The position numbers were made by a program, and so were the translations under genes. Shown piece after piece: positions 3,393 through 28,148 of a stretch of 32,688 bases of DNA (the stretch's first letter is position 1; every line of letters starts with the position of its first letter). Below the pieces are notes generated by a model. It had not been told where the DNA came from. It worked only from the letters and a program-made list of their open reading frames with translations, and did no database searches. The DNA lies in the NCBI GenBank assembly GCA_035498015.1, contig DATKAO010000079.1:1-32688 (forward strand), given 5' to 3'. The DNA comes from Myxococcota bacterium (GTDB lineage: Bacteria > Myxococcota_A > UBA9160 > SZUA-336).

Positions 3393-3400
3393 CTGGCGAG

Positions 3401-4126
3401 ATGGGCGCGCGCCGGCCGACGATCGGAATCACGACTTACGGACCGGCGGCGCCCAGCGAGGGCGACCTGGCGCTGATCTCGCTGCCCACCGGCTACGTGA
3501 ACGCGGTGGTGGCCGCGGGCGGCACGCCGGTGCTGCTCGCCGCGAGCGCGCTGCCGGCGCGCGAGCTGCTCGAGATCCTCGATGGCCTGGTCGTAGCGGG
3601 CGGCGGAGACATCGCGCCCGACGTCTACGGCGGCCGCGGGCACGAGACCATCTACATGGTGAATCCCGCGCGTGACTCGTTCGAGCTCGAGCTGGTGCGC
3701 GCCGCGCTCGAGCGCCCGCCGTTCCCGGTGCTCGGCATCTGCCGCGGCATGCAGATCATGAACATCGCCCTGGGCGGCGACCTCACGCCGCACGTGCCCG
3801 ACGAGTTCGGCGAGGCCGTGGCGCACCGGCTGCCGCCGCGGGTGCCTACGACCCATCCAGTGCGCATCGAGCGCGCGGGCGCGTTCGGCGAGATCTTCCG
3901 CGAGTCGGAGCTCCCGGTGTGCTCCTGGCACCACCAGGCCGTGCGCACGCTCGGCAAGGGCCTGCGGCCCATGGCATACGCGCCCGACGGCGTGATCGAG
4001 GCCGTGTCACTCGAGGGTCACCCGTTCGCGCTCGGCGTGCAGTGGCACCCCGAGATGCAGGCCGCGGAGGACCCCCGGCAGGCCCGCGTCTTCGAGGCGC
4101 TGGTCGAGCGGGCACGAGGGCGGTGA
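3401..4126 (+). CDS. Peptidase C26 / gamma-glutamyl hydrolase (PuuD-like)
   Basis: A 241-aa class-I glutamine-amidotransferase-fold hydrolase. The triad is visible: nucleophile Cys114 in LGICRGMQIMN, and His216 with Glu218 in VQWHPEMQ. An early GGGD segment (67-70, VVAGGGDIAPDVY) and LGGDL (124-128) are typical of the C26 gamma-glutamyl-GABA hydrolase family. It starts 8 nt after the glutamine-synthetase-family gene and ends overlapping rsgA by 4 nt (GTGA). Together with its neighbour it suggests release of a gamma-glutamyl group from a modified amine acid product, as PuuD does. The oxidase and dehydrogenase steps (PuuB, PuuC) are not next to it, so the pathway is inferred only from this pair. 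Confidence 0.88.
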   Translation: MGARRPTIGITTYGPAAPSEGDLALISLPTGYVNAVVAAGGTPVLLAASALPARELLEILDGLVVAGGGDIAPDVYGGRGHETIYMVNPARDSFELELVRAALERPPFPVLGICRGMQIMNIALGGDLTPHVPDEFGEAVAHRLPPRVPTTHPVRIERAGAFGEIFRESELPVCSWHHQAVRTLGKGLRPMAYAPDGVIEAVSLEGHPFALGVQWHPEMQAAEDPRQARVFEALVERARGR

Positions 4127-5643: not shown

Positions 5644-7794
5644 CTAGCCCCCTGCGGCCGCGCGCAGCCGCTCGGGAGTCAGCGGCAGGTCGCGCACGCG
5701 CAAGCCCGTGGCGTCGAAGACCGCGTTGGCGATCGCGGCGGCGGTGGGACCCTGTGACGCCTCGCCCGCGCCCAGCCACGGCTGGCCGGGCCGGTCGACG
5801 AGCACGGTCTCGATCTCGGGCACCTCGTCGAAGCGCAGGATCGGATAGCTGTCCCAGTCGACGCTCGTGACTCGCTCGCGGTCGAAGCGTACCTCTTCGT
5901 GGAGCGCCCAGCTCGCGGCCTGCACGAAGCCGCCCTCGAGCTGGTTGCTGAGTCCGTCGGGGTCGACGACCTGGCCGGCGTCCGCGGCGATCACCGCGCG
6001 CTCGAGCCGGATCTCGGCCGTCTGGTCGTCGACCCAGAGCTCGACCCCCACGGCGCACCAGCTCTTCTGATTCTTGTAGCGCGCGAACGCGAGCCCGCGG
6101 CCGCGCCCGCCGCGCGATGGCCGCGCGGCCGCACGCCAGCCGAGCCGCTCGGCGGCGGCGCGAATCACGTCGCGCGCGCGCGGGTCGTCGAGGTGGCGCA
6201 GGCGGAACTCCACCGGATCGACGCGCGCGGCGAGCGCGACCTCGTCGACGAACGACTCGAGCGCGAACACGTTCGCGTAGGCGCCGAGCGCGCGCAGCGC
6301 CGAGGTCCGGAATGGAGCGCCCGGCAGGAAGTGTTTCACCACGCGCCGCTGCGCGAACGAGTACAAAGGGTCCGCGTTGCGGTGGATGCCCGCGTGGTGC
6401 GCGAGCGCGGGGCGCGGCACGGGCGGAGTCATCGGAGGCTCGCGGTGCCAGGCCGCGATCAGCCCCGAGGTGCGCTCGCTGTACGGGATCGCGCGGTTCA
6501 TGTGCGTGTGACTGCGCGTCTCGTGACTCCAGTCCACGACCAGGCCCAGGTCGTCGAGGCTCGCCTCCAGGTCGACCACCATCGCCGAGCCGTACGGCTC
6601 CCAGGCGTGCTCGTCCTCGCGGCTCCACTGCAGGTGGACGGGCGTGCCCGGCAGCGCGCGCGCCACCAGCGCCGCGTCGAATGCCGCGTCGTCGGCGCCG
6701 TTGTGGCCGTAGCAGCCCGGTCCCTCGACGTGAACGAGCCGCAGCTTCTCGGCCGGAAGCCGGAGCGCCTGCGCGATGGCCAGGCGCAGGATCGAAACCC
6801 CCTGCGTGTGAGTCCAGATGGTGAGTGACCCGTCGACCTCGTGCGCCAGCGCCGCCGATGGCCCGATCGAAGCGTGCATCGTGAACGGGCGGGTGTAGCT
6901 CGCGCGCAGCGTGGTGGCGGCGCCAGCGGGCCGGGCGTGCGCGGCGAGCGGCTCGTCGACCGCGCTGCCCTCGATCACCGGGAAGCTCTTGGCCTCCGCG
7001 GCGCGCATGCCCTCATAGAGCGCCGACTGGACGGGAAGCTGCATCCCGCCCGACCAGCGGGCCGCGCGGCGCAGACGCTCGGCGGCGGCGATGGCCTGGA
7101 CCGAGCTGCGGGCCGCGACCGCCACGAAGCTGCCGTCGCGCAGCACGCGCAGCACGCCCGGCATGCGAGTCACGTCCGAGTCGTCGAGCGACTCGAGCCG
7201 AGCGCCCGGCCGCGGCGGCCGCACCACGCGCGCGTGCACCATGCCCGGCAGCCGCAGGTCCTGCACGAACACCGCGGCGCCCGTGACCAGTGACTCGAGG
7301 TCGATGCGCGGCCCGCGCCGGCCCAGCAGCCGGTAGCGGCCCGGGTCCTTGGGCCGCGCCGCGCCGCTCACCTTGCGCTCGAAGCGGCGGCCGCCGAACA
7401 GCTCGAAGTAGTTGGTCTCGGCGTCGAGCCCGGGGGCGGTCACGCGCCCGTCGTCGACCTCGAGCCCGAGCGCCGGCACGCCGAGCCGCGCCGAGGCGAG
7501 CTCGAGCAGGTGCGCGCGCGCCTCGGCCGCGGCCAGCCGGAGCGCCGTGCCGCTCTCCTCGAGCGAGTTGCTGCCCACGGTGTAGAGCTCGTTCGGGCCG
7601 TCGGCCGTGTCGGCCATGCGCATGCGGATGCGCGCGAGAGACACGTCGAGCTCCTCGGCCGCGATGCGCGCGAGCGCGGTCTTGATGCCCTGACCCAGCT
7701 CGACCTTGCCCGTGTACACGGTGACCGTGCCGTCGGTCTGGATGCGCAGCCAGGTGTCGAGGTCGGAATTGCGCTGCAGGCTGGGCGGGATCAC
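5644..7794 (-). CDS. Molybdopterin-binding large subunit, isoquinoline 1-oxidoreductase beta-type
   Basis: A 716-aa xanthine-oxidase-family large subunit. GTG start overlaps the stop of the 2Fe-2S gene (GTGA). Motifs: VELGQGIKT (31-39), GAPFRTSALRALGAYANVFALE (around 490-510), and GAGEASQGPT with catalytic Glu678. The PFRT and GEAS motifs are those of the isoquinoline 1-oxidoreductase/aldehyde dehydrogenase branch. Only the small 2Fe-2S partner is present and no FAD medium subunit (CoxM type) is nearby. IorAB-type enzymes likewise lack FAD and pass electrons to a membrane acceptor. No twin-arginine signal is seen at this start, although the frame is open 22 codons further upstream. The likely reaction is hydroxylation of an N-heterocycle or oxidation of an aldehyde; the substrate is unknown. 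Confidence 0.9.
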   Translation of the reverse strand: MIPPSLQRNSDLDTWLRIQTDGTVTVYTGKVELGQGIKTALARIAAEELDVSLARIRMRMADTADGPNELYTVGSNSLEESGTALRLAAAEARAHLLELASARLGVPALGLEVDDGRVTAPGLDAETNYFELFGGRRFERKVSGAARPKDPGRYRLLGRRGPRIDLESLVTGAAVFVQDLRLPGMVHARVVRPPRPGARLESLDDSDVTRMPGVLRVLRDGSFVAVAARSSVQAIAAAERLRRAARWSGGMQLPVQSALYEGMRAAEAKSFPVIEGSAVDEPLAAHARPAGAATTLRASYTRPFTMHASIGPSAALAHEVDGSLTIWTHTQGVSILRLAIAQALRLPAEKLRLVHVEGPGCYGHNGADDAAFDAALVARALPGTPVHLQWSREDEHAWEPYGSAMVVDLEASLDDLGLVVDWSHETRSHTHMNRAIPYSERTSGLIAAWHREPPMTPPVPRPALAHHAGIHRNADPLYSFAQRRVVKHFLPGAPFRTSALRALGAYANVFALESFVDEVALAARVDPVEFRLRHLDDPRARDVIRAAAERLGWRAAARPSRGGRGRGLAFARYKNQKSWCAVGVELWVDDQTAEIRLERAVIAADAGQVVDPDGLSNQLEGGFVQAASWALHEEVRFDRERVTSVDWDSYPILRFDEVPEIETVLVDRPGQPWLGAGEASQGPTAAAIANAVFDATGLRVRDLPLTPERLRAAAGG

Positions 7795-8252
7795 CGCGCC
7801 TGCTCCGCGATCGCCCGGCGCACCGCGCGCAGCATGCGCGGATGCGTGCCGCAGCGGCACAGGTGCTTCGACAGCGCGGCGCGCACCTGCGAGTCACTCG
7901 GTGCGGGCGTCTCCGAGAGCAGGGCCCGGGCCGCGATCACGATGCCCGGCACGCAGTAGCCGCACTGCGCCGCCTGCTCGGTCACGAACGCGCGCTGCAG
8001 CGGGTCGAGCGCGCCGCCGGCAGCCAGCCCTTCGATCGTGGTGATCTCCTTGCCCGCGAACGAATCCAGGGGCGCCGTGCACGACAGCACCTTGCGCCCG
8101 TCGCACAGCACCGCGCACGCGCCGCACTGCTCCAGCCCGCAGCCGTACTTCGCGCCGGTGAGTCCCAGAGACTCGCGCAGCACCCACAACAGCGGCGTCG
8201 AGGGGTCGACGCCTTCCAGGTCTCGCAGCTGGCCGTTCACGCGCAGGCGCAT
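7791..8252 (-). CDS. 2Fe-2S small subunit of the molybdenum hydroxylase
   Basis: A 153-aa protein with two [2Fe-2S] clusters. The plant-ferredoxin-type site has Cys38, Cys43, Cys46 and Cys58 (YGCGLEQCGAC...C). The helical-domain site has Cys97, Cys100, Cys132 and Cys134 (CGYC...CRC). Length and cysteine spacing match IorA, CoxS and similar subunits. It carries electrons from the molybdenum centre of the adjoining large subunit. The two genes overlap by 4 nt, so equal synthesis is likely. Downstream of the UMF1-like transporter by 9 nt. Confidence 0.93.
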   Translation of the reverse strand: MRLRVNGQLRDLEGVDPSTPLLWVLRESLGLTGAKYGCGLEQCGACAVLCDGRKVLSCTAPLDSFAGKEITTIEGLAAGGALDPLQRAFVTEQAAQCGYCVPGIVIAARALLSETPAPSDSQVRAALSKHLCRCGTHPRMLRAVRRAIAEQAR

Positions 8253-16079: not shown

Positions 16080-16925
16080 TCAGAATACCCCAAGCGGCGT
16101 GCCGTCTTCCCGGCGCGAGGACCCCCGCCGGAGCCACTCCTCGAGCGCGCGCAGGAACGGCTCGCGCGCGTGTCTCTCGCGCCACGGGTCGTGGCCGCAG
16201 CGCGGGAAGCCGAGATACGAGAGGTCCGCGACGTGGCGGGCGAGCAGGTCGCGGATCATCGGGCCGGGGTGCGGGTCGTCGTCGCCGTGCAGCATGCGCA
16301 CCGGCGCGCGGATCGCCGAGAACGCGGCGGGCTCGACGCCTTCGGCCTGCAGGCGCAGCACGTCGGGCCAGGTCTCGGCCTCGCCGCCCGAGTCGACCCA
16401 CAGCGGCTCGTCGCCGGGCTCCCTCGGCAGGAGATCGACGCCGTACACGGCGCTGAACAGCTGGCCGGCGCGCCACGAGAGCGCGTCACGCGCCGTGCGG
16501 TCGCGCGCGCTGGCGAGCCCGCCCTGCAGCTCGGCGAGCTCCGCGCGCTGCGCGGCGGTCATGCGCGACTGGCTGCGCCGCGCGTAGACGGCGCGCGTCG
16601 CCGCGTCGTACGTGCCACAGCCCACGAGACAGAGCGAGGTCACGAGCCCCGGGTGCGCCGCTGCGAACGAGAGACCGAGCATGGCGCCCCACGAGTGACC
16701 CACCACGTGCATGGGCCCGGGCAGCACCTCGGCCAGGTCGGCGACGTGGCGCGCGACCGTGAGCGCCGTCTCGCCGCTCCGGCGCTGCAGCGGCTCGAGC
16801 ACCTGGAAGCGCGGCGCGAGCGCGCGCGCCAGATCGGCCAGGTCACCTGCCGCACCGGGTCCGCCGTGCAGGAGCGCGACCTGCGGTCCGTCGCTGCCCC
16901 AGCGGCGCACGGCGATCGGGCCCAA
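16080..16925 (-). CDS. Alpha/beta hydrolase, proline-iminopeptidase-like
   Basis: A 281-aa alpha/beta hydrolase. Oxyanion motif HGGPG at 20-24 and nucleophile elbow GHSWGA (76-81, Ser78), the pair that marks prolyl-aminopeptidase-like enzymes. A GDDD acid segment (LHGDDDPHPG) and RCGHDPW base segment follow. The start is a TTG one nucleotide after the stop of the amidinohydrolase gene (TGACTTG); GTG 16910 is an alternative. The TGA-C-TTG junction is identical to that before the UMF1-type MFS gene. Position in the AST run suggests hydrolysis of an amide or ester of an amino acid, but that is a guess. Confidence 0.85.
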   Translation of the reverse strand: MGPIAVRRWGSDGPQVALLHGGPGAAGDLADLARALAPRFQVLEPLQRRSGETALTVARHVADLAEVLPGPMHVVGHSWGAMLGLSFAAAHPGLVTSLCLVGCGTYDAATRAVYARRSQSRMTAAQRAELAELQGGLASARDRTARDALSWRAGQLFSAVYGVDLLPREPGDEPLWVDSGGEAETWPDVLRLQAEGVEPAAFSAIRAPVRMLHGDDDPHPGPMIRDLLARHVADLSYLGFPRCGHDPWRERHAREPFLRALEEWLRRGSSRREDGTPLGVF

Positions 16926-16926
16926 G

Positions 16927-17826
16927 TCAGAGCTCGCCCAGGTCCCCGATCATGCACTTCACCGAGCCGCCGCCCTTCTTGTGGAACTCGGATACGTCGG
17001 CCTCGATCACGCGCGTGCCGGTGGCGCGCACGGCCGCCGCCAGCTCCGCCGAGACCCCGCGCGGCATGACCAGGAGCGGCTCGCCCGCGCGCTCGAGCGC
17101 GAACGAGTTCGCGGCGTAGATCGCGGCGTCGGCGTCGCCGATCTCGACCAGGCGGGCGCCGAAGCGCCGGCGCAGCTCGGCCAGTGACTCGGCACGGACC
17201 GCCGGCGGGTACACGAGCAGGTGTCGGCGGCCCGGCCCGAACGAACACAGGCAGGTGTCGCCGTGGTAGTAGCGCTCGTCGACCAGCTCCACCCGGAGCA
17301 CGGGCCGGCCCAGCGGCCGCACGGCCTCGATCTCGGCCAGCGCCTCGGGCTGACTGCGGAAGCCGTACACGCGCTTCCACGGCGGCCAGCCGAGGCGGGG
17401 CACGAAGCGCTGGCGGCGGATCCGGCCGTGGGTGAACAGGAACGCGTCGCCGGCGGGAAACAGGTCGGCCTCGCCCTCGAAGCGCGCGCGGATCTCGGCG
17501 GCGGGCAGGCCGCGGCGAGTCACGGCGGCGCGGTAGGCGGGCTTCTCTCCGGCGCGCGTGGGAGTCAGATTCGACAGCACGAACACGTCTCCGTCGCGAA
17601 AGCCCGCATTGGCAGGATACACCAGCCCCGGGTGCGCTGGATCGGGCGGAATCACTTCGACCTCGAGCCCCAGCGCGAGCAGCTGCTCGCGCATGGCGCC
17701 CCACTGCCGGATCGCGAGCGCGCGGTCGACCGCTTTGCGCCGGCCGTACTTGTCGCGGGTGTGCGGGTTGGCGCCGCCGACCACGGCGAAGTGCGCCGGG
17801 TCGCCCATCAGCACGACGTGACTCAC
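16927..17826 (-). CDS. Guanidine-modifying enzyme, ArgZ/DDAH size; candidate AstB substitute
   Basis: A 299-aa member of the amidinotransferase/arginine deiminase (pentein) superfamily. Catalytic residues: Glu119 (FEGEADLF), His188 (YYHGDTC) and Cys291 (GGSVKC), the E-H-C set of the family. VYPANAGF at 69-76 carries an ANA motif. From memory, E. coli AstB has WVANAAT at the equivalent place, and the ArgZ/AgrE arginine dihydrolases have a functionally important Asn there, where deiminases have Asp. That would favour dihydrolase chemistry (ornithine-type product, CO2 and two NH3). Bona fide AstB is about 440-450 residues and this is far shorter. It overlaps astD by 4 nt (GTGA), so it probably works on N2-succinylarginine; arginine or dimethylarginine remain possible. 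Confidence 0.8.
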   Translation of the reverse strand: MSHVVLMGDPAHFAVVGGANPHTRDKYGRRKAVDRALAIRQWGAMREQLLALGLEVEVIPPDPAHPGLVYPANAGFRDGDVFVLSNLTPTRAGEKPAYRAAVTRRGLPAAEIRARFEGEADLFPAGDAFLFTHGRIRRQRFVPRLGWPPWKRVYGFRSQPEALAEIEAVRPLGRPVLRVELVDERYYHGDTCLCSFGPGRRHLLVYPPAVRAESLAELRRRFGARLVEIGDADAAIYAANSFALERAGEPLLVMPRGVSAELAAAVRATGTRVIEADVSEFHKKGGGSVKCMIGDLGEL

Positions 17827-19328
17827 GGGCTCGGGAAGCCCGGGTATTTCGCGGGCGCGCCGGGCTCCGCGAGCTCGAGGTTCGCCTGCGCGTAGGTCGT
17901 GTAGAGCGTCGAGGCCACGCCGGCCGGCCGATCGTTGCCGCTGTGCTTGATGCCGCCGAAGGGCAGCTTCGACGACGCGCCCACGCTCGGCGCGTTCCAG
18001 TTGAGGCAGCCCACGCGCACCGTGCGCGCGGCGCGCTCGTAGGTCGCGCGCGAGCGCGTGAACACGGCGGCGACCAGCCCGTAGTCGCTGGCGTCGAGCT
18101 CGGCCAGCCCCGCCTCGACCGAGTCGACCGGCACGAGGAACGCGTCGGGCACGAAGTGCTCCTCCCGCTGGTAGCGGCTGTCGCGGCGCGTGGCGCGCAG
18201 CCGGTGCAGGCTCGGCCGCACGTAGTGACCGGGCCGCGGACCGTCGACCGGCCCGCCGGGCGCGAGCAGCTCGGCCCCGTCGCTGCGCGCCCAGTCGAGC
18301 AGCTGCGCGTGGCGCTGGCGCGCCGCGGCGTTGATCACGGGTCCCATGAACGCGCCCGGGTCACTCGAGTGACCGATCGCGATGCCGCGGAACAGCCGCA
18401 CCAGCCGCTCGGCGAGTGAGTCGGCGACGGCCCGCTCGGCGAAGATGCGGCTGGTCGAGCTGCAGCGCTGACCCGAGGTCACGCACGCGCCGAAGACGAT
18501 CGCGCTCGCGGCCGCGTCGAGGTCGGCGTCGGCGCACACCAGCACTCCGTTCTTGCCGCCCAGCTCGAGCGCCAGGAGCTTCCACGGCTGGTCGGCCGTG
18601 GCCTGCGCGATGCGCCGGCCCGCGGCGTACGAGCCGGTGAACAGCACGCCGTCGAGCGCCGGATGCGCGGCGATGCGCGCGCCGATCGAGGCGTCGCCCT
18701 GCACCACCTGGAGCACGCCGGGCGGAAACGCGGCGCGGTGCGCGAGCTCGGCGTAGAGCTGCGCGACCGCAGGCGTCTTCTCGGACGGCTTCAGCACCAC
18801 GCAGTTCCCGGTCGCGAGCGCCGGCACCACGTGACCGTGCATCAAGTGACCCGGAAAGTTGAACGGGCCCAGCACGCCGAACACGCCGCGCGCCACCGCG
18901 CGCCAGCGCCCGACCTGTCCGGCGCCGAGCTCGAGGCTGCGCTCGGCCACGAGCTCGAGGCCCTGAGTCAGCGTGATGTCGAACTTCGCGAGCATGGCCG
19001 CGACCTCGGTGCGCGCCTCCCACAAGGGCTTGCCCACCTCGGCGGCGATCACCCGCGCGAAGCGCTCCTGCTCGGCGGCCAGCGCCGCGCAGAAGCGGCC
19101 CAGCGCGGCGGCGCGCGCGGCGGGCTCGGCGTCGCGCCAGGCGGGCCAGGCCCGGCGCGCTGACGCGACCGCGCGCTCGACCGATTCGGCGGCGAACGGG
19201 AACGCGCCCAGTGACTCGCGCGTGTCTCCCGGGTCCCGCGACTCGAGCTCGCCGTCGGGCTGCGCGGGCGGCGCGAGCCGGCCGTCGACCAGGTCGCCCA
19301 GGACCTCGAACGGAGCGTGCTCAGCCAC
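17823..19328 (-). CDS. astD: N-succinylglutamate 5-semialdehyde dehydrogenase AstD
   Basis: A 501-aa aldehyde dehydrogenase with AstD-like features. GPFNFPGHLMHGHVVPAL (154-171), catalytic Glu255 in ALELGGKNGV, catalytic Cys289 in TSGQRCSS, and a C-terminal GCLNWNAPSVGASSKLPFGGIKHSGN stretch. The paired NWN and SVGASSKLPFGG are characteristic of succinylglutamate-semialdehyde dehydrogenases. It oxidises the semialdehyde to N-succinylglutamate with NAD+. The GTG start overlaps the end of astA by 8 nt, and the GTGA at its end overlaps the amidinohydrolase gene. Astonishingly tight coupling argues that these enzymes function in one route. Confidence 0.9.
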   Translation of the reverse strand: MAEHAPFEVLGDLVDGRLAPPAQPDGELESRDPGDTRESLGAFPFAAESVERAVASARRAWPAWRDAEPAARAAALGRFCAALAAEQERFARVIAAEVGKPLWEARTEVAAMLAKFDITLTQGLELVAERSLELGAGQVGRWRAVARGVFGVLGPFNFPGHLMHGHVVPALATGNCVVLKPSEKTPAVAQLYAELAHRAAFPPGVLQVVQGDASIGARIAAHPALDGVLFTGSYAAGRRIAQATADQPWKLLALELGGKNGVLVCADADLDAAASAIVFGACVTSGQRCSSTSRIFAERAVADSLAERLVRLFRGIAIGHSSDPGAFMGPVINAAARQRHAQLLDWARSDGAELLAPGGPVDGPRPGHYVRPSLHRLRATRRDSRYQREEHFVPDAFLVPVDSVEAGLAELDASDYGLVAAVFTRSRATYERAARTVRVGCLNWNAPSVGASSKLPFGGIKHSGNDRPAGVASTLYTTYAQANLELAEPGAPAKYPGFPSP

Positions 19329-20364
19329 CGCTCGCCCCTCGGGCGGAGCGCGGCAGCGGAGTCAGCGTGACCTCCTCACCGGTGGCGAGCTGCAGGCGCT
19401 CGCGCGCCTCCTTGCCGATGCGCACCTCGGCACCGGTGCGCAGCGCGGGCGCCGCCACGGCGCGGAACGCGCCGTGCTCCTCGGTGGCGATGATCGCCGG
19501 GGCGGCACCTTCGGGCGGCGCGCCTTCCGCCAGCACGCCGCGCGCCGTCTCGCGCAGCGGAGTGATTCGCGCGGTCTCGGCGCTCACGAACGGCCCGCCG
19601 TCGAACGGGTCGATCTCGTCGATCCACGCCAGCCCGGCCGCCTCGAGCAGCCGCAGCGCGGGCACGGTCTCCTCGTGCACCTGGCCGAGCTGCGCCGCGA
19701 CCTCGGCGTCGAGCAGCGAGGCGTAGAACGGCGTGTCGGGAAACAGGTCCAGGATGAAGCTCTTGTCGCCGGCGCTGCGGTGGTCGGCCTCGTTGTAACT
19801 CATACCGGTGAAGCGCTTGCCGAACGCGTCCCAGAAGGCGCTGCGGCCGTGCGTGTCGATCGCCGCGCGCATCTCGGCCAGGATGCGCGGCTCGAAGCTC
19901 GAGCGGTGGCGCGCGATGTACGCGAAGCGCCCCCACGACAGGAGCTTGCCGGGCCAGCCGGGGCGCCGGCGCGCGTCGGGGTGCAGGATGAGTGACCCGA
20001 GCTCGGTCGGGCCGTCGCGCGACGCGCCGAGCTGGAGCGTGGTGTGCGTGACGCGCACGCCGGTGCTCGGCGAGTGGCGCGTCTCCTCGCCCACCCGCAG
20101 ATACAGGTGGGGCATGTCGGGCGTGCCGTGCTTCGACAGCACCGCGCACGTGCCCACGACCCGCTCGCCCTCGTCGACCAGCGCGAACTGGTACTCGCGC
20201 TCGGCGTGGGGCGGGCCGGGCGCGCGGAAGGCGCGCTCCGAGCGCTCCAGCCGCCGGCGCACGAACGCTTCGTCGTGGGGCAGGTTCGGGCTGTCGAGAT
20301 AGCGCGCCAGCTCGAGGATGGCGGCCAGGTCGTCGACGCGTGCCGCGCGCAACAGGAAGGTCAT
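19321..20364 (-). CDS. astA: Arginine N-succinyltransferase AstA
   Basis: A 347-aa protein with the AstA/AruG pattern. It starts MTFLLRAARVDDLAAILELA, a GNAT-like fold. LGSLILHPDARRRPG (122-136), FEPRILAEMR (157-166) and FTGMSYNEADH (185-194) are family hallmarks, and YIDEIDPFDGGP-like text is present as WIDEIDPFDGGP. It transfers succinyl from succinyl-CoA to the alpha-amino group of arginine, the entry step of the AST pathway. Length matches the family (about 340). The ATG overlaps the M20 gene (ATGA). No second astA paralogue (AruF) is next to it. Confidence 0.92.
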   Translation of the reverse strand: MTFLLRAARVDDLAAILELARYLDSPNLPHDEAFVRRRLERSERAFRAPGPPHAEREYQFALVDEGERVVGTCAVLSKHGTPDMPHLYLRVGEETRHSPSTGVRVTHTTLQLGASRDGPTELGSLILHPDARRRPGWPGKLLSWGRFAYIARHRSSFEPRILAEMRAAIDTHGRSAFWDAFGKRFTGMSYNEADHRSAGDKSFILDLFPDTPFYASLLDAEVAAQLGQVHEETVPALRLLEAAGLAWIDEIDPFDGGPFVSAETARITPLRETARGVLAEGAPPEGAAPAIIATEEHGAFRAVAAPALRTGAEVRIGKEARERLQLATGEEVTLTPLPRSARGASGG

Positions 20365-21680
20365 GCCGGCCCCCGGCCCGCGAGCCGCGCGAGCGCCGCA
20401 CGGTAGAGCGACACCGCCTGGTGTAGCTGCGCCAGGCTCGTGTGCTCGTTGGGCTTGTGCACGTTGCCGATCGAGCGCCCCGGCCCCAGCACCACGGCCT
20501 CCAGGCCGGCCGCGGCGAGCAGGCCCGCTTCGGTGCAGGTGGCCTTGGTCTCGACTCGCGGAGCGAGTCCCGCGGCCCGCTGCGCGGCTTGGAGCTCGCG
20601 CACCAGCGGCGCGTCGGCCGCGGTGGCGAGCGCCGGGTTCGCACGCACCGCGCGCAGCTCGGCGGCGCGCGCGAGCGGCGCGACCAGCGCGGCCGCGTCG
20701 TCGCCCGGGATCGGCCGCACGTCGCAGCCGAACAGCGCGCAGTCGCCGTCGAGCGCCACGCGCCCCAGGCTCGCCACGCTGTGCGCCGGGGAGAAACGCG
20801 AGTCACTGCGCCGGGCGGCGCCGGCCTGCAGCTCGCGCCAGGCCGTGAGGAAGCGCAGGAGCGGCGCGGCGCTCCACACCGGTCCGGCCGCGCGCGCGCC
20901 CGAGGAGTCACGGACGGCGAGCTCGATCTCGCAGCGGTCCGGCACCACGTTCAGCGCGCCGCCGCCCGCCAGCGCCCCGATCCCCGGCGCTTGGGTCCGC
21001 TCCAAGAGCTCCAGCGCGCCGAGCACCGCGTTCTTTCCCAAGGCCGGGTCGCTCGAGTGCGCGGCCGCGCCGCGCACCTCTTCACGAGCCGACCACAGCC
21101 GCGCGCCGTCCAGCCGCTCCAGCCGGACGCGCGCCTCGTAGACCGCGTAGCCCTTGTGCGCGTGCACCACGGCCAGCTGCGACGGCTCGCCCACCAGCGC
21201 GCGCGTCGAGCCCTTGGTGAGCCCCGTCTCCACCAGCCAGCGCGCGCCCAGCATGCCGATCTCTTCGCCGAACGTGCCCACCAGCCGCACCGGCCGCACG
21301 AGTGACTCGCGCTCGGCCGCCAGCGCCACGGCCTTGCACACGAAGTCGACCTTGGCGTCGGCCGAGCCCAGGCCGTACAGCCGGTCGCCCTCGCGCGTGG
21401 GCCGGAACGGGTCGCCGCCGGTCGCGGTCCACGCCGCCGCGTCGCCCGGCGGCACCGTGTCGAGGTGAGTCACGAGCAGCACGCCGTCCTCGCCCGCCGC
21501 GCCCGCGTCGCACAGCACGGCGAAGTGCGTCGCGCCGCCGGCATGCGCGCTCTCGACCTCGCCGTCGAGCCCGAGCTCCGCGAGCAGCTCGCTGGCCGCG
21601 TCGGCGATCGCCGCGTTGCCGAGCCGCGACTCGGACGGGGTCGCGATGAACCGCTCCGCCCAAGCGACTAGGTCGGCCAT
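20361..21680 (-). CDS. M20-family metallo-deacylase (ArgE/DapE type), candidate AstE substitute
   Basis: A 439-aa M20 metallopeptidase-family enzyme. Zinc ligands and catalytic residues: His72 and Asp74 in VTHLDTVP, bridging Asp108 in GLGSADAKVD, catalytic Glu139 and Glu140 in GTFGEEIG, Glu165 in LVGEPS, and His408 in GNVHKPNEHT. A dimerisation lid domain fills about 180-300. ArgE and DapE of this family remove N-acetyl or N-succinyl groups from amino acids. It is the first gene directly before astA, with a 4-nt overlap, and no M14-type AstE is visible. The most economical reading is that it desuccinylates N-succinylglutamate, or an earlier succinylated intermediate. That is inference. Confidence 0.85.
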   Translation of the reverse strand: MADLVAWAERFIATPSESRLGNAAIADAASELLAELGLDGEVESAHAGGATHFAVLCDAGAAGEDGVLLVTHLDTVPPGDAAAWTATGGDPFRPTREGDRLYGLGSADAKVDFVCKAVALAAERESLVRPVRLVGTFGEEIGMLGARWLVETGLTKGSTRALVGEPSQLAVVHAHKGYAVYEARVRLERLDGARLWSAREEVRGAAAHSSDPALGKNAVLGALELLERTQAPGIGALAGGGALNVVPDRCEIELAVRDSSGARAAGPVWSAAPLLRFLTAWRELQAGAARRSDSRFSPAHSVASLGRVALDGDCALFGCDVRPIPGDDAAALVAPLARAAELRAVRANPALATAADAPLVRELQAAQRAAGLAPRVETKATCTEAGLLAAAGLEAVVLGPGRSIGNVHKPNEHTSLAQLHQAVSLYRAALARLAGRGPA

Positions 21681-21702: not shown

Positions 21703-22026
21703 CTAGGGGCTCGCTTGAGCCGTGCGTGCGCAGCACGGACACAGCGCGCGGAGTGATTCGAACGTGTAGATGCCCGAGTCGTGACCGTCGCTCCAGGCGA
21801 AGGCCAGCGCGTAGCGGCCGACCCCCGAAATGCGCAGCGGGCGCACGTCGGCGGGCACCGAGTCGGCGCGCAGCAGCGGCCGGCCGGTGTGCTCGTCGAT
21901 GCAGTGCGCGCAGCGACACGCGAGGCGCAGGAGGCGCACGGGGTAGAGACTCTCGTGGCCGTCCTTCCACACGATGCGCAGCGTGTCGGGCCCGGCCTGC
22001 GAGATCGCGGTGGGGGCGAGGTCCAT
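21703..22026 (-). CDS. DUF971 (GBBH-like N-terminal domain) protein
   Basis: A 107-aa protein made of one DUF971 domain, the fold at the N-terminus of gamma-butyrobetaine hydroxylase and at the C-terminus of some Mrp/ApbC proteins. Cysteines Cys37, Cys39 and Cys42 (LACRCAHCIDE) plus Cys96, Cys98 and Cys99 (CPCC) could bind a metal. The central GRYALAFAWSDGHDSGIYTFE (70-90) is the usual W-D-G-H-SGIY signature. The gene is short but a normal size for a stand-alone copy. It lies 22 nt upstream of the M20 gene and may be the first gene of the AST run. Its role is unknown; a part in iron-sulfur or metal handling is often suggested. Confidence 0.87.
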   Translation of the reverse strand: MDLAPTAISQAGPDTLRIVWKDGHESLYPVRLLRLACRCAHCIDEHTGRPLLRADSVPADVRPLRISGVGRYALAFAWSDGHDSGIYTFESLRALCPCCARTAQASP

Positions 22027-22033
22027 GCCGGGA

Positions 22034-22039
22034 AAGCTA
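22034..22039 (-). promoter_or_regulatory. Leaderless-type -10 box before the DUF971/AST run
   Basis: On the minus strand TAGCTT, 7 nt before the ATG at 22026, with no Shine-Dalgarno sequence. It is the same hexamer as before the glutamine-synthetase-family gene. This would be the promoter of the nine-gene leftward run and lies in a 63-bp divergent gap shared with the F420 gene. Confidence 0.42.
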
Positions 22040-22089
22040 ACCGACGCGTGAGTTAAGATCCTCGCCCCGACTGGGCACTGGAGGGCGGA

Positions 22090-22767
22090 ATGGCGAAGGA
22101 AGGCGTGGCGATCCTGGGCGGCACGGGCGAGCAGGGCCTGGGCCTGGCGTACCGGTTCGCGAAGGCGGGGCGGCCGGTGCGCATCGGCAGCCGCAAGGAG
22201 GAGCGGGCGCTCGAGGCGGCCAAGGAGCTCCTCGCCAAGCTGCCCGGCGCCGACGTGTCGGGCCACGAGAACGCAGCCGCGGTGCGCGCGGTCCGGGGCG
22301 GGATCGTGATCCTGTCGGTGCCCTTCGAGCACACCGCGGGCACGATCAAGACGGTGAAGGCCGAGCTCGCGCCAGGCACGGTGCTGGTCTCGATGGGCGT
22401 GCCGCTCGCCGCCGCGATCGGCGACGTGGCCTCGCGCGTGATCGGCGTGTCGCAGGGCTCGTGCGCCGAGCTGTGCGAGTCACTCGCGCCGGACGGCGTG
22501 CCGGTCGTGTCGGCGTTCCAGAACGTGGCGGCGCACCGGCTGCTCGACCTGGATCACTCGGTCGAGTGCGACGTGATCGTCTCGGGCGAGAAGGAGCCGC
22601 GCGCGCGCATCATGGCGCTGTGCGACGACATCCCGGGCACGCGCGCGATCGACGGCGGGCCGCTGTACAACGCGCGCTACGTGGAGCAGCTCACCGCGCT
22701 CATGATCGGCATCAACATCCGGCTGAAGAAGCCCGAGGGCGTGGGCCTGCGGCTGACCTACGTGTGA
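22090..22767 (+). CDS. npdG: F420H2:NADP+ oxidoreductase (NpdG/Fno family)
   Basis: A 225-aa protein with a Rossmann start GVAILGGTGEQGLGLAYRFAKAG (5-27) and an NADP-binding SRKEERA (34-40). Later segments SVPFEHT (76-82), SMGVP (100-104) and AFQNVAAHRLLDLD (142-155) match F420-dependent NADP oxidoreductases. It moves hydride between NADPH and the deazaflavin F420. Length fits the family. GGAGGGCGGA lies just before the ATG as a ribosome site, and a TAAGAT at 22054-22059 could be its -10. Its presence implies F420 biosynthesis elsewhere in the genome. Two further genes at 28168-29047 are candidate F420 users. Convergent with the membrane gene that ends 1 nt away. Confidence 0.92.
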   Translation: MAKEGVAILGGTGEQGLGLAYRFAKAGRPVRIGSRKEERALEAAKELLAKLPGADVSGHENAAAVRAVRGGIVILSVPFEHTAGTIKTVKAELAPGTVLVSMGVPLAAAIGDVASRVIGVSQGSCAELCESLAPDGVPVVSAFQNVAAHRLLDLDHSVECDVIVSGEKEPRARIMALCDDIPGTRAIDGGPLYNARYVEQLTALMIGINIRLKKPEGVGLRLTYV

Positions 22768-22768
22768 C

Positions 22769-23944
22769 TCACATGAGCACGCGCGCCAGGCCCTTCAAAA
22801 TGTCGACCAGCGGGACCTGGAGCGCGATCAGCGGGATCATCGGCAGCGCGGCCGCCAGGATGATCGGCGCGATGGCTTGCAGGTCGATCGGCACCGGGCG
22901 CAGCGCCTTCGCGCGCTCGTAGCCCGTCGTGAGATCGGCGAGCGAGGACGCATCCTCGTTGCCGAGGAGCTCCTCCGCTTCGGCTTTCAGGGTGAGCCAC
23001 TTGTCGCGGAACGCGGCGTCGTGGCGGCTCGACAGCGCCCCGTACTCGTAGAGCGCCTCGCGCTTCAGCGCGGCCAGCCGCGGGGTGAATGCCAGCAGCG
23101 GGCCGAGCGCGAACACCAGCGCCAGCAGCGCGAACGCGCCGATCAGCGGATAGAGTGACTGGAGCGTGGCGCCGCGGTACACCACGTCTTCGGCCAGCAC
23201 CGAGGCCAGCGACGCCGACCCGACCAGCACCAGGATCGCGAAGCCAGACTGGCCGAGCGCCATGAAGCCGAGCCCGGCCGCGCGGTCCGGGTGGGTCGCG
23301 ACCAGGCGCAGGTCGAGGCGCGAGATGCGCGCCAGCACCTGCGCCCAGACCAAAAGACGAAAGCCCCAGCGCAGGAAAAGGAACTGGAACAGCGGCACGC
23401 TGACCAGCGCGTGCCACCAGCCGGCGACGGTGAGTGACTTCATGCCGTCGACGCCGATCAGCGCCTGCCAGGTGGCGATGCCGCTGCCGAGCTCGCGCCG
23501 CGCCGACGACCAGGCCGCGAGTACGGCCAGCGCGAGCACCACGAGCTCCGCGACCGTGGAGTCGACGTGTCTGCGCGCCTTCTGCAGGATCGCCACGAAC
23601 CCGGGCTCGGTCTCGCGCGGAATCAGCCGCGCCTCCCGGAACTGCAAGAGCACGCGGCGCAGGCGGGCGGGCACCGCGGCGTCGGCCAGCACGAGCAGCA
23701 CGACCGCGAACAGAAAGCGCGCGTAGGCCGAGAAGTCGCGCAGGAACGGCACGCGCACGGCGTCGCCCATGGCGAGCCCGTCGCGTGCCGAGAGCACGAG
23801 CAGCGGCAGCCAGCAGATGCCCGCGAACAACAGCGCCCGCCGCACCAGGAGCTTCGGCTCGGTCGGCGCGAGCCCCGTGCGCAGCCAGATGCGCCAGGCC
23901 GGCCCGCCCTGCTCGAGCGCGAGCTGCTCCTCCGCCGGAGTCAT
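22769..23944 (-). CDS. Polytopic membrane protein of unknown function
   Basis: A 391-aa integral membrane protein with about seven hydrophobic segments. They include LLFAGICWLPLLVLSA near 40-55, FLFAVVLLVLADAAV, LVVLALAVLAAW, LFQFLFLRWGFRLLVW, ILVLVGSASLASVL, LIGAFALLALVFALGPLLAF, and a C-terminal APIILAAALPMIPLIALQVPL. A soluble charged stretch between the last two (about 300-360, SSRHDAAFRDKWLTLKAEAEELLG) looks helical. I do not recognise the family. The ATG at 23944 overlaps the stop of the DUF4105 gene (ATGA), so it is probably co-translated with it; a frame open 60 codons upstream lies inside that gene and is rejected. Confidence 0.75.
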   Translation of the reverse strand: MTPAEEQLALEQGGPAWRIWLRTGLAPTEPKLLVRRALLFAGICWLPLLVLSARDGLAMGDAVRVPFLRDFSAYARFLFAVVLLVLADAAVPARLRRVLLQFREARLIPRETEPGFVAILQKARRHVDSTVAELVVLALAVLAAWSSARRELGSGIATWQALIGVDGMKSLTVAGWWHALVSVPLFQFLFLRWGFRLLVWAQVLARISRLDLRLVATHPDRAAGLGFMALGQSGFAILVLVGSASLASVLAEDVVYRGATLQSLYPLIGAFALLALVFALGPLLAFTPRLAALKREALYEYGALSSRHDAAFRDKWLTLKAEAEELLGNEDASSLADLTTGYERAKALRPVPIDLQAIAPIILAAALPMIPLIALQVPLVDILKGLARVLM

Positions 23945-24936
23945 CGCCGATAGTCTGGCAGGCCCTCGCGGATCCGGGCGGAAAAGTCGGGCGCAAAGCC
24001 GGCCGCCTTCGCCCGCTCGGTCACGTCGCTCTTCGCCTTCAGCTCCTCGAACGGCATGCTCCGGTCGAGCGAGCCGCGCTGGTACATGAGCCCGTCGAGA
24101 TAGCCGTTCGCGAGCATCTTCCACGAGATCGGCACCTGGCCGCCCGCGTGGATGACCCGATTGCGGATCGTGGTGGTGCAGTTCTGGGTGAGCGCGTTGT
24201 ACCAGGTCGGGTGCTGGTCGAGCTCGTTCACCTCGGCGAGATAGTCGAGCAGGAGCCGCTTCGCGTTCGGCACCGGCGCGGTCAGCCGGTACAGGTAGGT
24301 GTGCTCGCCGCGCACGATGTCGCGCACGCCGATCACGTCGCGCTCGTCGGCCACCACGTAGTAGAGCTCGTACTGGCGGAAGAAGCCGAGCAGGGCCGAG
24401 TACGACTCACCTTTCTCCTTGCGCGTCTCGATCGAGATCGCGAGCGGCCGCGAGTCCTCGAACTCCCAGGCCACGATCGTGTGCGCGTACAGCGTCGGGC
24501 CCCAGAACGAGATGAACAGGTCGATACCGCGCAGCTTGTCGAGGTCGTAGGTGCGCGTGTCCCAGTGCTCGTCGAAGTCGGTGTCGCTGCGGTAGGTGAA
24601 GTCGCGCACGTTCTCGATCGTGACCTTGCTGCCGTCGATGCGCGCGTGCGCGGTCTTGGCGACCTCGGGCAGCCAGTCGCGGTCGTTGCGCGGGGGGATG
24701 CGCAGCCACCAGGCCATGACCGCTACACCGATCAGGATCAGCGCGAGCAGCGCGCGGCCGTAGGGCCGCACGAACGCCAGACACGCCAGCGCGGCCACGG
24801 CGAAGAACGCGACCAGCGCGCCGGCCACGGAGCGTGCCACCGGCCCGTCGATCCAGAGCGCGGCACCCGCCCAGAGACAGAACAAGAGCACGAAGGGCGT
24901 GAGCAGGGCGAGGCCCATTCCACGCGCGAGACTCAC
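23941..24936 (-). CDS. DUF4105 (Lnb N-terminal-like) membrane protein
   Basis: A 331-aa protein. Three hydrophobic segments at the N-terminus (about 8-27, 36-55 and 60-77) anchor a large soluble domain, presumably outside the membrane. The domain carries DUF4105-like elements: WDTRTYDLDKLRGIDLFISFWGP (125-147), IAWEFEDS-like AWEFEDS (155-161), YELYYVVADERDVIGVRD (187-204), and TWYNALTQNCTTTIRNRV (244-261). The conserved N-C-T in TQNCTT suggests a catalytic or structural Cys; DUF4105 is related to papain-fold-like enzymes. The start is GTG 24936; ATG 24918 is in frame. It is sandwiched between the MutS-like gene (33 nt away) and the polytopic protein (ATGA overlap). Confidence 0.82.
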   Translation of the reverse strand: MSLARGMGLALLTPFVLLFCLWAGAALWIDGPVARSVAGALVAFFAVAALACLAFVRPYGRALLALILIGVAVMAWWLRIPPRNDRDWLPEVAKTAHARIDGSKVTIENVRDFTYRSDTDFDEHWDTRTYDLDKLRGIDLFISFWGPTLYAHTIVAWEFEDSRPLAISIETRKEKGESYSALLGFFRQYELYYVVADERDVIGVRDIVRGEHTYLYRLTAPVPNAKRLLLDYLAEVNELDQHPTWYNALTQNCTTTIRNRVIHAGGQVPISWKMLANGYLDGLMYQRGSLDRSMPFEELKAKSDVTERAKAAGFAPDFSARIREGLPDYRR

Positions 24937-24969
24937 TTCGGCAGGCTCGGACCGTTCACGTGCGGCAGC

Positions 24970-26769
24970 CTATCCTTGGGGGTCGGCGAAGTCGAGCCCG
25001 ACCGCGCGCATCAGCGCGAGCGCGTTGCCGCGGGCAATCACCCCTTCGCGCAGCCGGTAGTCGAAGTGCAGGACGCCGTTCGCGACCTGATCTTCGAAGT
25101 GGGCGTTGCGGGCGCGCGGCGCGAGCTCGTCGGCGATCGCGGTGAGTGCCAGGTCGTGCGTGGTCACGAGGCCGATCGCGCCGCGCCGCAGCAGCTCGCG
25201 CAGCAACGCCTCGGCGCCGATGCGCCGGTCGTGTGAGTTGGTGCCGGAGAGGATCTCGTCGAGCAGGAACAAGAGAGGGAATTGGCCCGTGCAGCGATCC
25301 ACCACGCGGCGCAGCGCCTGGAGCTCGGCCCAGAAGCGAGACGCGCCGTCGCGCAGCGAGTCCACGACCTGCAGCACGGCGCCCAACGCGAGCGGAGACA
25401 CGCGCAGCCGCGCGGCGCGCACCGGCGCGCCCGCCAGCGCCATGACCAGCGCCGTGCCCACGCTGCGCAGGAAGGTGCTCTTGCCCGACATGTTCGAGCC
25501 CGAGACGACGACCAGCGCGTGACTCGCGTCGAGACACAGGTCGTTGCGCACGCAGCGCCCCTCGTCGATCAGCGGGTGACCCAGCTGCTCGGCGTCGAAC
25601 AGCGGGCCCCCGTCGCAGACCTCGGGAAACGGGTCGTCCGGGTGCTCGAAGGCGTAGCCCGCCAGGTCGGACAGCGCCTCGAGCTCGCCCAGGGTCTCGA
25701 GCCAGCGCGCCACTCCGGCGCCGCAGCGCGCGCGCCAGGCTTCGAGCGCGTACGCGCCCTGCGCGCCCCACAGCAGCACCAGCGCGATCGGCGCGAACAG
25801 CTGGTTGCGACGCCAGTCGAGCACCGACACGATCCGGTGTAGCTGGGCGATCTGGCGCGATGCCGGCTCGCCGTCGGTGTCGAGCGCGGCGCGCAGCGCG
25901 ACGAGCCGCGGCGAGGTGAAGCGCTCCCGCTCGACCCGTGCCAGGAGGACCGCGAGCTGCGCGAGGTCGCGCGCGCGCGGCTCGATCGCATGCAGCACGG
26001 CCGTCACGCGCCGGCCCAGGACGACCATCACGGCGCCTTCGGCGAGGCCCAGCACCAAGAGCGCAGGGGTCGTCTCCGTCCACACGAAGGCCGCGACGAG
26101 CGCGCACGCGGTCGCCAGCCCGAGCGCCGCGAGCGCGACGCGCGACGCGCTGCCCGCGAGCCGGGCCGGCGCCGTGGCCCAGGCCACGAGTGACTCCGGG
26201 TGCACGCCCTCGCGCACCTCGGGCCCGGCGCTGAACCAGTCCTCGCGCAGCGCGAGGCGCGGCCGCAGCTCTTCGGCCGCCTGCTGGCGCGCGCGCACCT
26301 CGTCCGGCGCCGCGGCCTCGAGCAGCCAGCCGGCCAGACGCGCCTGGCCGCTCGCGGTCTGCGCCTGGGACAAGAGTGCGAACAACGAGCCCGGCCCGAA
26401 CAGATCGAGCTGCGCGGCGTAGGGGTGAGCGGGGTCCGCGTGACGCTCTCCGGTGTTGCCCCAGGGCGCGTCGAGCAGGCCGAGCCGCGCGAGCCCGCGC
26501 TCGTAGAACTCCACGCCGCGCCGCGCGCGGAGCTCGTCGCGCCGCGCCGCCTCGTGCCGCAGCACGAGCGCCACGAAGCCGGCCGCGAGCGGCGCGAGCC
26601 ACCCGCCACTCACTCGGCCCGCCCAGAACGCGAGCCAGGCCACGCCCAGGCCCGTCGCGAACACGGCCAGGCGCGCGTTCGAGAGCCAGCGCGTGCGCCG
26701 CGCGGCGGCGGCGGCGCTGGCGCGGCGCTCCGCGAGCAGCGCGCCGTAGTGCGCGGGAACGTCCGTCAT
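24970..26769 (-). CDS. Membrane-anchored MutS-family ATPase
   Basis: A 599-aa protein with a MutS-type ATPase domain at its C-terminus and membrane segments in front. Walker A is GSNMSGKST at 424-432, Walker B LLFLLDE at 499-505, a signature-like SGTNSHDR follows at 508-515, and a switch His occurs in LVTTHDLAL. Hydrophobic segments lie near 34-52, 57-71, 211-230, 235-252 and 324-340. The mismatch-recognition domain I of MutS (with Phe-X-Glu) is absent, so it is unlikely to be a canonical mismatch repair protein. Related membrane MutS-like proteins are annotated simply as MutS in several phyla. Function is unknown. It leads a three-gene run with DUF4105 and polytopic proteins. Confidence 0.87.
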   Translation of the reverse strand: MTDVPAHYGALLAERRASAAAAARRTRWLSNARLAVFATGLGVAWLAFWAGRVSGGWLAPLAAGFVALVLRHEAARRDELRARRGVEFYERGLARLGLLDAPWGNTGERHADPAHPYAAQLDLFGPGSLFALLSQAQTASGQARLAGWLLEAAAPDEVRARQQAAEELRPRLALREDWFSAGPEVREGVHPESLVAWATAPARLAGSASRVALAALGLATACALVAAFVWTETTPALLVLGLAEGAVMVVLGRRVTAVLHAIEPRARDLAQLAVLLARVERERFTSPRLVALRAALDTDGEPASRQIAQLHRIVSVLDWRRNQLFAPIALVLLWGAQGAYALEAWRARCGAGVARWLETLGELEALSDLAGYAFEHPDDPFPEVCDGGPLFDAEQLGHPLIDEGRCVRNDLCLDASHALVVVSGSNMSGKSTFLRSVGTALVMALAGAPVRAARLRVSPLALGAVLQVVDSLRDGASRFWAELQALRRVVDRCTGQFPLLFLLDEILSGTNSHDRRIGAEALLRELLRRGAIGLVTTHDLALTAIADELAPRARNAHFEDQVANGVLHFDYRLREGVIARGNALALMRAVGLDFADPQG

Positions 26770-26777
26770 CCGCGCCG

Positions 26778-26783
26778 AGCATA
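26778..26783 (-). promoter_or_regulatory. Leaderless-type -10 box before the MutS-like gene
   Basis: On the minus strand TATGCT, 8 nt before the ATG at 26769. It is in a 35-bp gap divergent with the GH1 gene. The hexamer equals that before the AraC-type gene. Confidence 0.35.
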
Positions 26784-26792
26784 GGCGCCTGG

Positions 26793-26798
26793 TACGAT
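26793..26798 (+). promoter_or_regulatory. Leaderless-type -10 box before the GH1 gene
   Basis: TACGAT, ending 6 nt before the ATG at 26805, with no ribosome site. Only 9 bp separate it from the -10-like box of the divergent gene, so RNA polymerase could probably not bind both at once. Confidence 0.42.
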
Positions 26799-26804
26799 GC
26801 GCGC

Positions 26805-28148
26805 ATGGCGTTTCTCGAGTTCCCGAAGGGCTTCCAGTGGGGCGCGGCGACGGCTGCGTATCAGATCGAAGGCGCCGCGCGCGAGGACGGCAAGGGTCTC
26901 TCGATCTGGGACGTGTTCTGCCAGCAGCCCGGCCGCGTGCAGGAGCGAGACACGGGCGACGTGGCCTGCGACCACTACCACCGCTACCGCGACGACGTGG
27001 CGCTGATGAAGCGCCTGGGGCTGCAGACCTACCGCTTCTCGGTCTCGTGGCCGCGCGTGCAGCCGTTCGGCGCAGGCGAAGCGAACGAGCGCGGGCTCGA
27101 CTTCTACTCGCGCCTGGTCGACGAGTTACTCGCCGCGGGCATCCAGCCCTGCCTCACGCTCTACCACTGGGACCTGCCGCAGGCGCTGCAGGACCTGGGA
27201 GGCTGGGCCGAGCGCACCACCGCGCAGCGCTTCGCCGACTATGCGGCGCTGGTGTACCGGCGGCTCGGAGACCGCGTGACTCGCTTCATCACTCACAACG
27301 AGCCGATCGTGACCTCGATGATGGGCTACCGCGCGGGCGTGCTCGCGCCCGGCATCCGCGACGTGCGGCTCGCGGGCCGCGCGATCCACCACCTGTTGCT
27401 GTCGCACGGCCTGGCCGTGGCCGCGTTCCGCGCCTCGGGCGTGCGCGGCGAGATCGGCATCACCAACGCCAACACCAGCTACGAGCCCGCCGACTCGACC
27501 GATGAGTCACGCGCGGCGTGCGAGCTGGCGCGCGACTTCGACACCCGCACCTGGCACGGCCCAGTGTACGGCCGCGGCTACCCGAAGTCGGTGCTCGCCT
27601 ACTACGAGCGCAACTCCGCCGCGCTGCCGATCGAGGCCGACGACCTGCGCGCGATCGCTGCGCCGACCGACTTCCTGGGCGTGAACCTGTACAGCCGCCG
27701 GCAGGTGCTGGCCGACCGCACGCGGGGCGTCGGCTACCGCAACGCGCCGCCGACGCTGCCGCTCCTGCCCATGGGCTACGAGTCGGCGCCCTTCGCGCTG
27801 GGTGACTTCCTGCGCTTCGTGTCGGCCGAATACGGCAAGCCGAGGATCTACGTGACCGAGAACGGCGTGTGCGACAACACCGCGCCGGCAGGCGGCGCGG
27901 TCGACGACGTGGAGCGCACGGAGCTCCTGCGCGGCTTCATCGCCGGCATGCACGCGGCCATCCGGGACGGCGCCGCCGACGTGCGCGCGTACTACGTCTG
28001 GTCGCTGCTCGACAACTTCGAGTGGGCGTTCGGTTACTCGAAGCGCTTCGGCATCGTGTGGACCGACTTCCAGACACAAGCGCGCATTCCCAAGCACAGC
28101 GCCGCGTTCTTCAGCGAGCTGATCCGGCGCAACGGGCTGGAGGCGTGA
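26805..28148 (+). CDS. GH1 beta-glucosidase-type glycosidase
   Basis: A 447-aa glycoside hydrolase family 1 enzyme. It begins FPKGFQWGAATAAYQIEGA (6-24), the GH1 N-terminal signature. Acid/base Glu166 is in THNEP (163-167) and nucleophile Glu352 in YVTENG (349-354). YHWDLPQALQD (120-130) and LLDNFEWAFGYSKRFGIV (57-73 from the end of the TENG segment, near 402-418) line the sugar site. There is no signal peptide, so it acts in the cytoplasm on beta-glucosides or similar. The aglycone cannot be read. The gene stands alone, with a divergent MutS-like gene upstream and a convergent gene ending 19 nt downstream. Confidence 0.95.
   Translation: MAFLEFPKGFQWGAATAAYQIEGAAREDGKGLSIWDVFCQQPGRVQERDTGDVACDHYHRYRDDVALMKRLGLQTYRFSVSWPRVQPFGAGEANERGLDFYSRLVDELLAAGIQPCLTLYHWDLPQALQDLGGWAERTTAQRFADYAALVYRRLGDRVTRFITHNEPIVTSMMGYRAGVLAPGIRDVRLAGRAIHHLLLSHGLAVAAFRASGVRGEIGITNANTSYEPADSTDESRAACELARDFDTRTWHGPVYGRGYPKSVLAYYERNSAALPIEADDLRAIAAPTDFLGVNLYSRRQVLADRTRGVGYRNAPPTLPLLPMGYESAPFALGDFLRFVSAEYGKPRIYVTENGVCDNTAPAGGAVDDVERTELLRGFIAGMHAAIRDGAADVRAYYVWSLLDNFEWAFGYSKRFGIVWTDFQTQARIPKHSAAFFSELIRRNGLEA

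Follow-up and report, generated by a model that had tools for sequence, protein, structure and literature searches.

Arginine is catabolised in Escherichia coli and Pseudomonas by the arginine succinyltransferase (AST) pathway, which is built from AstA, AstB, AstC, AstD and AstE. AstB (PF04996, TIGR03241), the N-succinylarginine dihydrolase, belongs to the superfamily of guanidino-modifying enzymes (GMEs). The same superfamily contains ArgZ/AgrE, which act on free arginine in the cyanobacterial ornithine-ammonia cycle, and CtlX, a putative citrullinase encoded near aruG in which an HLD motif has changed to HTN (Price et al. 2022, PMC9007349). ArgZ-like proteins have also been found to cluster with a large uncharacterised group (NnhA paper, PMC11659421).

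Here, we investigated contig DATKAO010000079.1 of a Myxococcota bacterium (assembly GCA_035498015.1); the whole stretch of 32,688 nucleotides that was analysed is referred to below as the window. It contains overlapping genes for an M20 deacylase, AstA, AstD and a short GME. We propose, with a probability of roughly two in three, that this locus is an AST catabolic operon in which AstB has been replaced by a GME of the ArgZ and dimethylargininase (DDAH) line, and AstE by the M20 deacylase. It shares with the canonical pathway homologues of AstA and AstD, a class-III aminotransferase in sister lineages, and the same proposed net chemistry. In contrast, the AstB and AstE families are absent, and a GME of ~300 aa and an M20 enzyme stand at their steps. 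We found no prior description of this variant in the open-access literature searched, a partial coverage that is no proof of novelty.

Co-occurrence of AstA with a distinct GME clade

In a maximum-likelihood tree, a 100/100 branch separates the AST-linked GMEs, as one clade, from ArgZ/AgrE and mycobacterial-type dimethylargininases. We examined the distribution of this clade in 60 genomes of the class to which the window belongs, the window's own included. AstA was identified in 34 genomes, of which 28 encode a member of the GME clade and two (G033 and G034) encode AstB and no GME; in the other four (G003, G009, G020 and G059) the contig ends before or inside the expected GME position. The clade was found in none of the 26 genomes that lack AstA, and GME and AstB occur together in none of the 60 (AstA-GME association, Fisher p ~1e-11, uncorrected for shared ancestry). 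Five AstA-less genomes contain only GME relatives of 35-40% identity, and the three placed in the tree all group with ArgZ. Class members without AstA carry ArgZ-type relatives at L066:8905-9681, L067:9215-9994 and L068:9328-10104; the latter two group with the first in the tree.

Outside the class, we identified the GME clade in records titled Binatota, Lindowbacteria, Omnitrophota, Chlamydiae, Nitrospinae, Elusimicrobia, Proteobacteria and Deltaproteobacteria, labels that are those given by the depositors of the metagenome-assembled genomes (MAGs). Among 24 such GME genomes, sampled via named contigs, AstA is present in 23, even where the genes are far apart, and AstB in none. A named chromosome (L119) considered as a possible case of GME without AstA was dismissed, its locus being broken by a 100-N gap. 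Pairwise identities of GME and AstA are correlated across 47 genomes (r = 0.89, Mantel 0/999). Because the GME clade co-occurs with AstA and excludes AstB, these distributions support the replacement of AstB by the GME.

Absence of AstB and AstE, and conservation of gene order

The initial annotation, which proposed a nonorthologous-replacement version of the AST pathway, named full-length AstB and AstE elsewhere in the genome as what would speak against it. In the window's genome, a draft assembly of 4.52 Mb in 257 contigs that is 95% complete, no match to PF04996 (AstB) was found, with positive controls in E. coli and Caulobacter, nor any match to PF04952 (C-terminal part of AstE). The GME itself has no AstB Pfam match. 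The sole match to PF24827 in this genome is a 366-aa M14 protein (C217, L072:5874-6974), which we rejected as AstE: it has an apparent signal sequence, lies in a cluster that appears unrelated when its neighbours are read by eye, and scores 27 bits against the AstE equivalog (TIGR03242). In our own reading, the surrounding region (L072:3319-6974) contains membrane-transglutaminase-like and ATP-grasp-like genes beside the M14 protein, and is unrelated to AST.

A survey of gene neighbourhoods had also been asked for at the outset, and the order AstA-AstD-GME was found to recur in nearly every related genome checked, indicating that the operon arrangement is not due to chance. Within this general order we identified several arrangements. 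The window's family and two Omnitrophota contigs have M20-AstA-AstD-GME, and other families of the class have AstC-AstA-AstD-GME, with a class-III aminotransferase in first place. A Lindowbacteria contig (L120) has AstC-M20-AstA-AstD-GME, one gene per pathway step, and its genes overlap slightly at the junctions AstC/M20, M20/AstA and AstA/AstD. In Binatota-like genomes the GME lies away from the AST genes; we dropped the idea that these GMEs are unlinked to AST once AstA turned up elsewhere in 11 of 11 genomes. At the Binatota-like AstA loci, M20 adjoins AstA in nine of the ten examined, and AstC is next in four. Together with AstA co-occurrence and AstB exclusion, the kept gene order lends support to the replacement first proposed.

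For the transaminase step, it had been suggested that AstC is missing and may be ArgD elsewhere in the genome. No aminotransferase copy is linked to the operon here, and an ArgD-like protein is indeed present (L157, PRK03244 409.9 bits, cut-off 457), but AstC does belong to the module in relatives, as an AstC-like class-III aminotransferase (Aminotran_3) lies inside the operon in the sister families and in the Lindowbacteria contig.

Sequence, fold and predicted activity of the GME

The Glu-His-Cys triad initially claimed for the short enzyme is present as E117, H188 and C291, and these residues, together with D190, are invariant in an alignment of 55 GMEs of the clade. An AlphaFold2 model (pLDDT 87.6) predicts an alpha/beta propeller carrying this triad, a fold that fits the dihydrolases of the GME superfamily. 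The initial annotation further took an ANA motif as a sign that both guanidino nitrogens are removed. This motif (A72-N73-A74, N73 corresponding to N71 of ArgZ and to Asp in deiminases) is likewise invariant in all 55 members, but the asparagine of the AN motif on its own does not indicate loss of both nitrogens, because proteins scoring above the dimethylargininase cut-off also have it. We therefore rejected it as proof of a dihydrolase.

Among NCBIfam models, the GME is closest to the Mtb-type dimethylargininase (137.5 bits, cut-off 300), followed by arginine dihydrolase (NF052232, 106 bits, cut-off 450). The first of these matches, and the frequent location of CtlX beside aruG in Pseudomonas (PMC9007349), would agree with a GME that acts as a citrullinase or dimethylargininase and supplies ornithine or citrulline to an AST-like route, a role of the kind proposed for CtlX. 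CtlX is, like the GME, a superfamily member encoded beside arginine/ornithine succinyltransferase genes. However, the GME falls well below the dimethylargininase cut-off and scores 23.6 bits against the CtlX model (NF046062, cut-off 334), and it does not have the Asp-to-Asn change of CtlX: D190 of its HGD motif is conserved, whereas the corresponding residue of CtlX is reportedly Asn. Moreover, unless another dihydrolase were present, the second AST step would be absent in all of these genomes. We thus consider such an activity very improbable.

The nearest relatives of the GME in the PDB are ArgZ/AgrE, both by phmmer on PDB sequences and by Foldseek on the AlphaFold2 model (top match ArgZ 6jv1, E 2e-23, TM 0.81, 27% identity). 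AstB (1ynh) follows at rank 17 (E 5e-13), and DDAH also lies well behind ArgZ/AgrE. Where the initial annotation had the AstB and AstE steps held by "unrelated or distant" enzymes, the GME is not unrelated to AstB; both belong to one superfamily, in which they are distantly related. It shares with AstB the proposed reaction, the asparagine in the AN-A motif and G8 of the first strand motif, and differs in its length (299 aa, against about 440 aa) and in its distance in the fold search, PF04996 being absent from the genome. With ArgZ/AgrE it has in common 27-29% identity, the Glu-His-Cys residues and the AN-motif asparagine. In contrast to them, it is single-domain, with no ornithine cyclodeaminase part, forms its own clade, and is AstA-linked. 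The NPWM(E) loop common to ArgZ and dimethylargininase is replaced by NP[HYF]TR in all 55 GMEs (N20-P-H-T-R24 here), with H in 52 of them, an arginine (R24) invariant in all, and extra basic residues alongside. A further clade-specific feature, missing from ArgZ/DDAH, is an insertion of ~20 residues around positions 135-153. By analogy with the lid region of the superfamily, this loop and insertion could form a pocket for the succinyl group.

The closeness to ArgZ/AgrE raises the main alternative, in which the steps run in another order: the GME would be an ArgZ-type dihydrolase that converts free arginine to ornithine, and AstA would succinylate ornithine before AstC, AstD and M20 act. The sequence alone does not tell succinylarginine from free arginine as the GME substrate. 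The closest solved relatives, by sequence and by fold, are free-arginine enzymes, the Pseudomonas arginine/ornithine succinyltransferase acts on both amino acids (cited in PMC9007349), and the AstA of the window is divergent, scoring 297 bits against PF04958, whereas the AstA proteins linked to AstB in G033 and G034 reach 411-439 bits. Against this order, the arginine dihydrolase model (NF052232, cut-off 450) gives the GME 106 bits but reaches 333 bits with the ArgZ-type protein of L066, from a class member that lacks AstA. The ArgZ-type relative of AstA-less members keeps NPWME, whereas the NPWM loop of the free-amino-acid enzymes has given way, in 55 of 55 GMEs, to NP[HYF]TR together with a run of basic residues, and the GME almost never occurs without AstA. 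An ornithine-first order is therefore unlikely, and we favour an N-succinylarginine dihydrolase.

The M20 deacylase

The M20 protein carries the complete set of metal and catalytic residues, and the CTEA motif of ArgE type; H72, D74, D108, E139, E140, E165, H208, N244, R322 and H408 are invariant in 22 AST-linked homologues. Its predicted structure (pLDDT 94) best matches E. coli ArgE in the PDB (7rsf, E 8e-29), with DapE also near. DapE is a hydrolase of succinyl-amino acids. The protein differs from ArgE/DapE in that it scores below all equivalog cut-offs, belongs to an AST-linked set of its own, and is not the only M20 deacylase of its genome.

As the best NCBIfam model is acetylornithine deacetylase ArgE (TIGR01892, 180.7 bits, cut-off 297.7), and most other families of the class have AstA-AstD-GME without a linked M20, the enzyme might instead be a co-transcribed biosynthetic deacylase of ArgE/DapE type, or a peptidase, with succinylglutamate cleaved by another enzyme. 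However, the same genomes have other ArgE/DapE-like M20 proteins (e.g. G000:C245 and G001:C9), and this subfamily adjoins AstA, in several arrangements, in the window's family, Omnitrophota, Lindowbacteria and Binatota-like genomes, indicating that the link is not an accident of one lineage. In addition, G034, which has no AstE equivalog, encodes a canonical-type cluster, M20(PRK07338)-AstC-AstA-AstD-AstB (L071:8412-14958), with a different M20 subfamily. Here an M20 enzyme seems to have taken over from AstE independently, suggesting that M20 enzymes have been recruited to the desuccinylase step more than once. In our family-search controls, AstE was also missing from known AstA/AstB genomes such as Caulobacter, and an M20 desuccinylase may therefore be a general answer there. 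We accordingly give a role outside AST only a small chance, and retain the M20 enzyme as the putative succinylglutamate desuccinylase.

Proposed pathway

In the route that we infer for this operon, AstA would succinylate arginine, and the GME would take both guanidino nitrogens off N2-succinylarginine, releasing 2 NH3 and CO2 and yielding succinylornithine. Succinylglutamate semialdehyde would then arise through a class-III aminotransferase, which sister lineages encode beside the other genes and which is here probably ArgD at C92, and AstD would oxidise this semialdehyde. Finally, the ArgE-like M20 enzyme would split off succinate to give glutamate.

Several points weigh against this proposal. 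The top NCBIfam models of AstD are AstD models (PRK09457 and TIGR03240, about 356-366 bits), but AstA and AstD both score below their equivalog cut-offs, and therefore the specificity of AstA could have shifted. No desuccinylase is linked to the operon in the majority of the remaining families of the class, and one Nitrospinae MAG, possibly an incomplete assembly, has AstD-GME and no AstA match. For every member of the GME clade the activity is a prediction from sequence, and the acyl specificity of the M20 enzyme is not readable from its sequence or model, its nearest characterised relative being an acetylornithine deacetylase.

Organisation of the operon and flanking genes

Coordinates and domain assignments confirm the four-gene, minus-strand operon as first described (Table 1), including the three types of overlap, which are ATGA at M20/astA, 8 nt at astA/astD, and GTGA at astD/GME.

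Table 1. Genes of the proposed AST operon and the gene directly upstream, in window coordinates.
Gene	Coordinates	Strand	Product length	Assignment
M20 deacylase (ArgE/DapE type)	21680-20361	minus	439 aa	PF01546 + PF07687 (M20 + M20_dimer); proposed N-succinylglutamate desuccinylase replacing AstE
astA, arginine N-succinyltransferase	20364-19321	minus	347 aa	PF04958 297 bits; TIGR03243 227 bits (cut-off 284)
astD-like succinylglutamate-semialdehyde dehydrogenase	19328-17823	minus	501 aa	PF00171; PRK09457 365.7 bits, TIGR03240 355.5 bits, both below cut-offs
GME (guanidino-modifying enzyme)	17826-16927	minus	299 aa	proposed N-succinylarginine dihydrolase replacing AstB
DUF971 / GBBH-like_N protein	21703..22047, 5' end approximate (internal ATG)	minus		PF06155 86 bits; directly upstream of M20

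The DUF971 gene and the M20 gene are kept together in the window's family (tblastn; L039, L040, L041, L042, L043, L062 and L075). A divergent npdG gene for NADPH:F420 reductase (22090-22767, plus strand, score above the cut-off) flanks the operon together with the DUF971 gene in this family. The alpha/beta hydrolase gene downstream of the GME (16080-16925) shows no conserved association with the operon, and was set aside. Two long open reading frames next to the operon (22769-24124 and 24956-26806, minus strand) have no Pfam match; segments of the second turn up again close to the operon in members of the window's family. Elsewhere in the window, we identified genes for a molybdopterin-binding subunit of the xanthine dehydrogenase family (5644-7860, minus strand) and for a protein with a C-terminal Peptidase_C26 domain (2630-4126, plus strand).

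Implications for arginine catabolism

Beyond this locus, we consider it fairly probable that uncultured bacteria possess a separate and widespread form of AST, comprising a new family of single-domain N-succinylarginine dihydrolases, derived independently of AstB from the line of free-arginine dihydrolases and dimethylargininases, and a family of M20 succinylglutamate desuccinylases. If so, AST arginine catabolism would be wider than annotation based on AstB and AstE indicates, and the genomes of several uncultured lineages would have been scored as lacking AST though the pathway is complete. Proteins that are now nearest to dimethylargininase models would gain a functional name. Succinylarginine dihydrolase would have had a second origin inside one superfamily, offering a natural comparison of how ArgZ-type specificity for the free amino acid, and specificity for the acylated substrate, arise.

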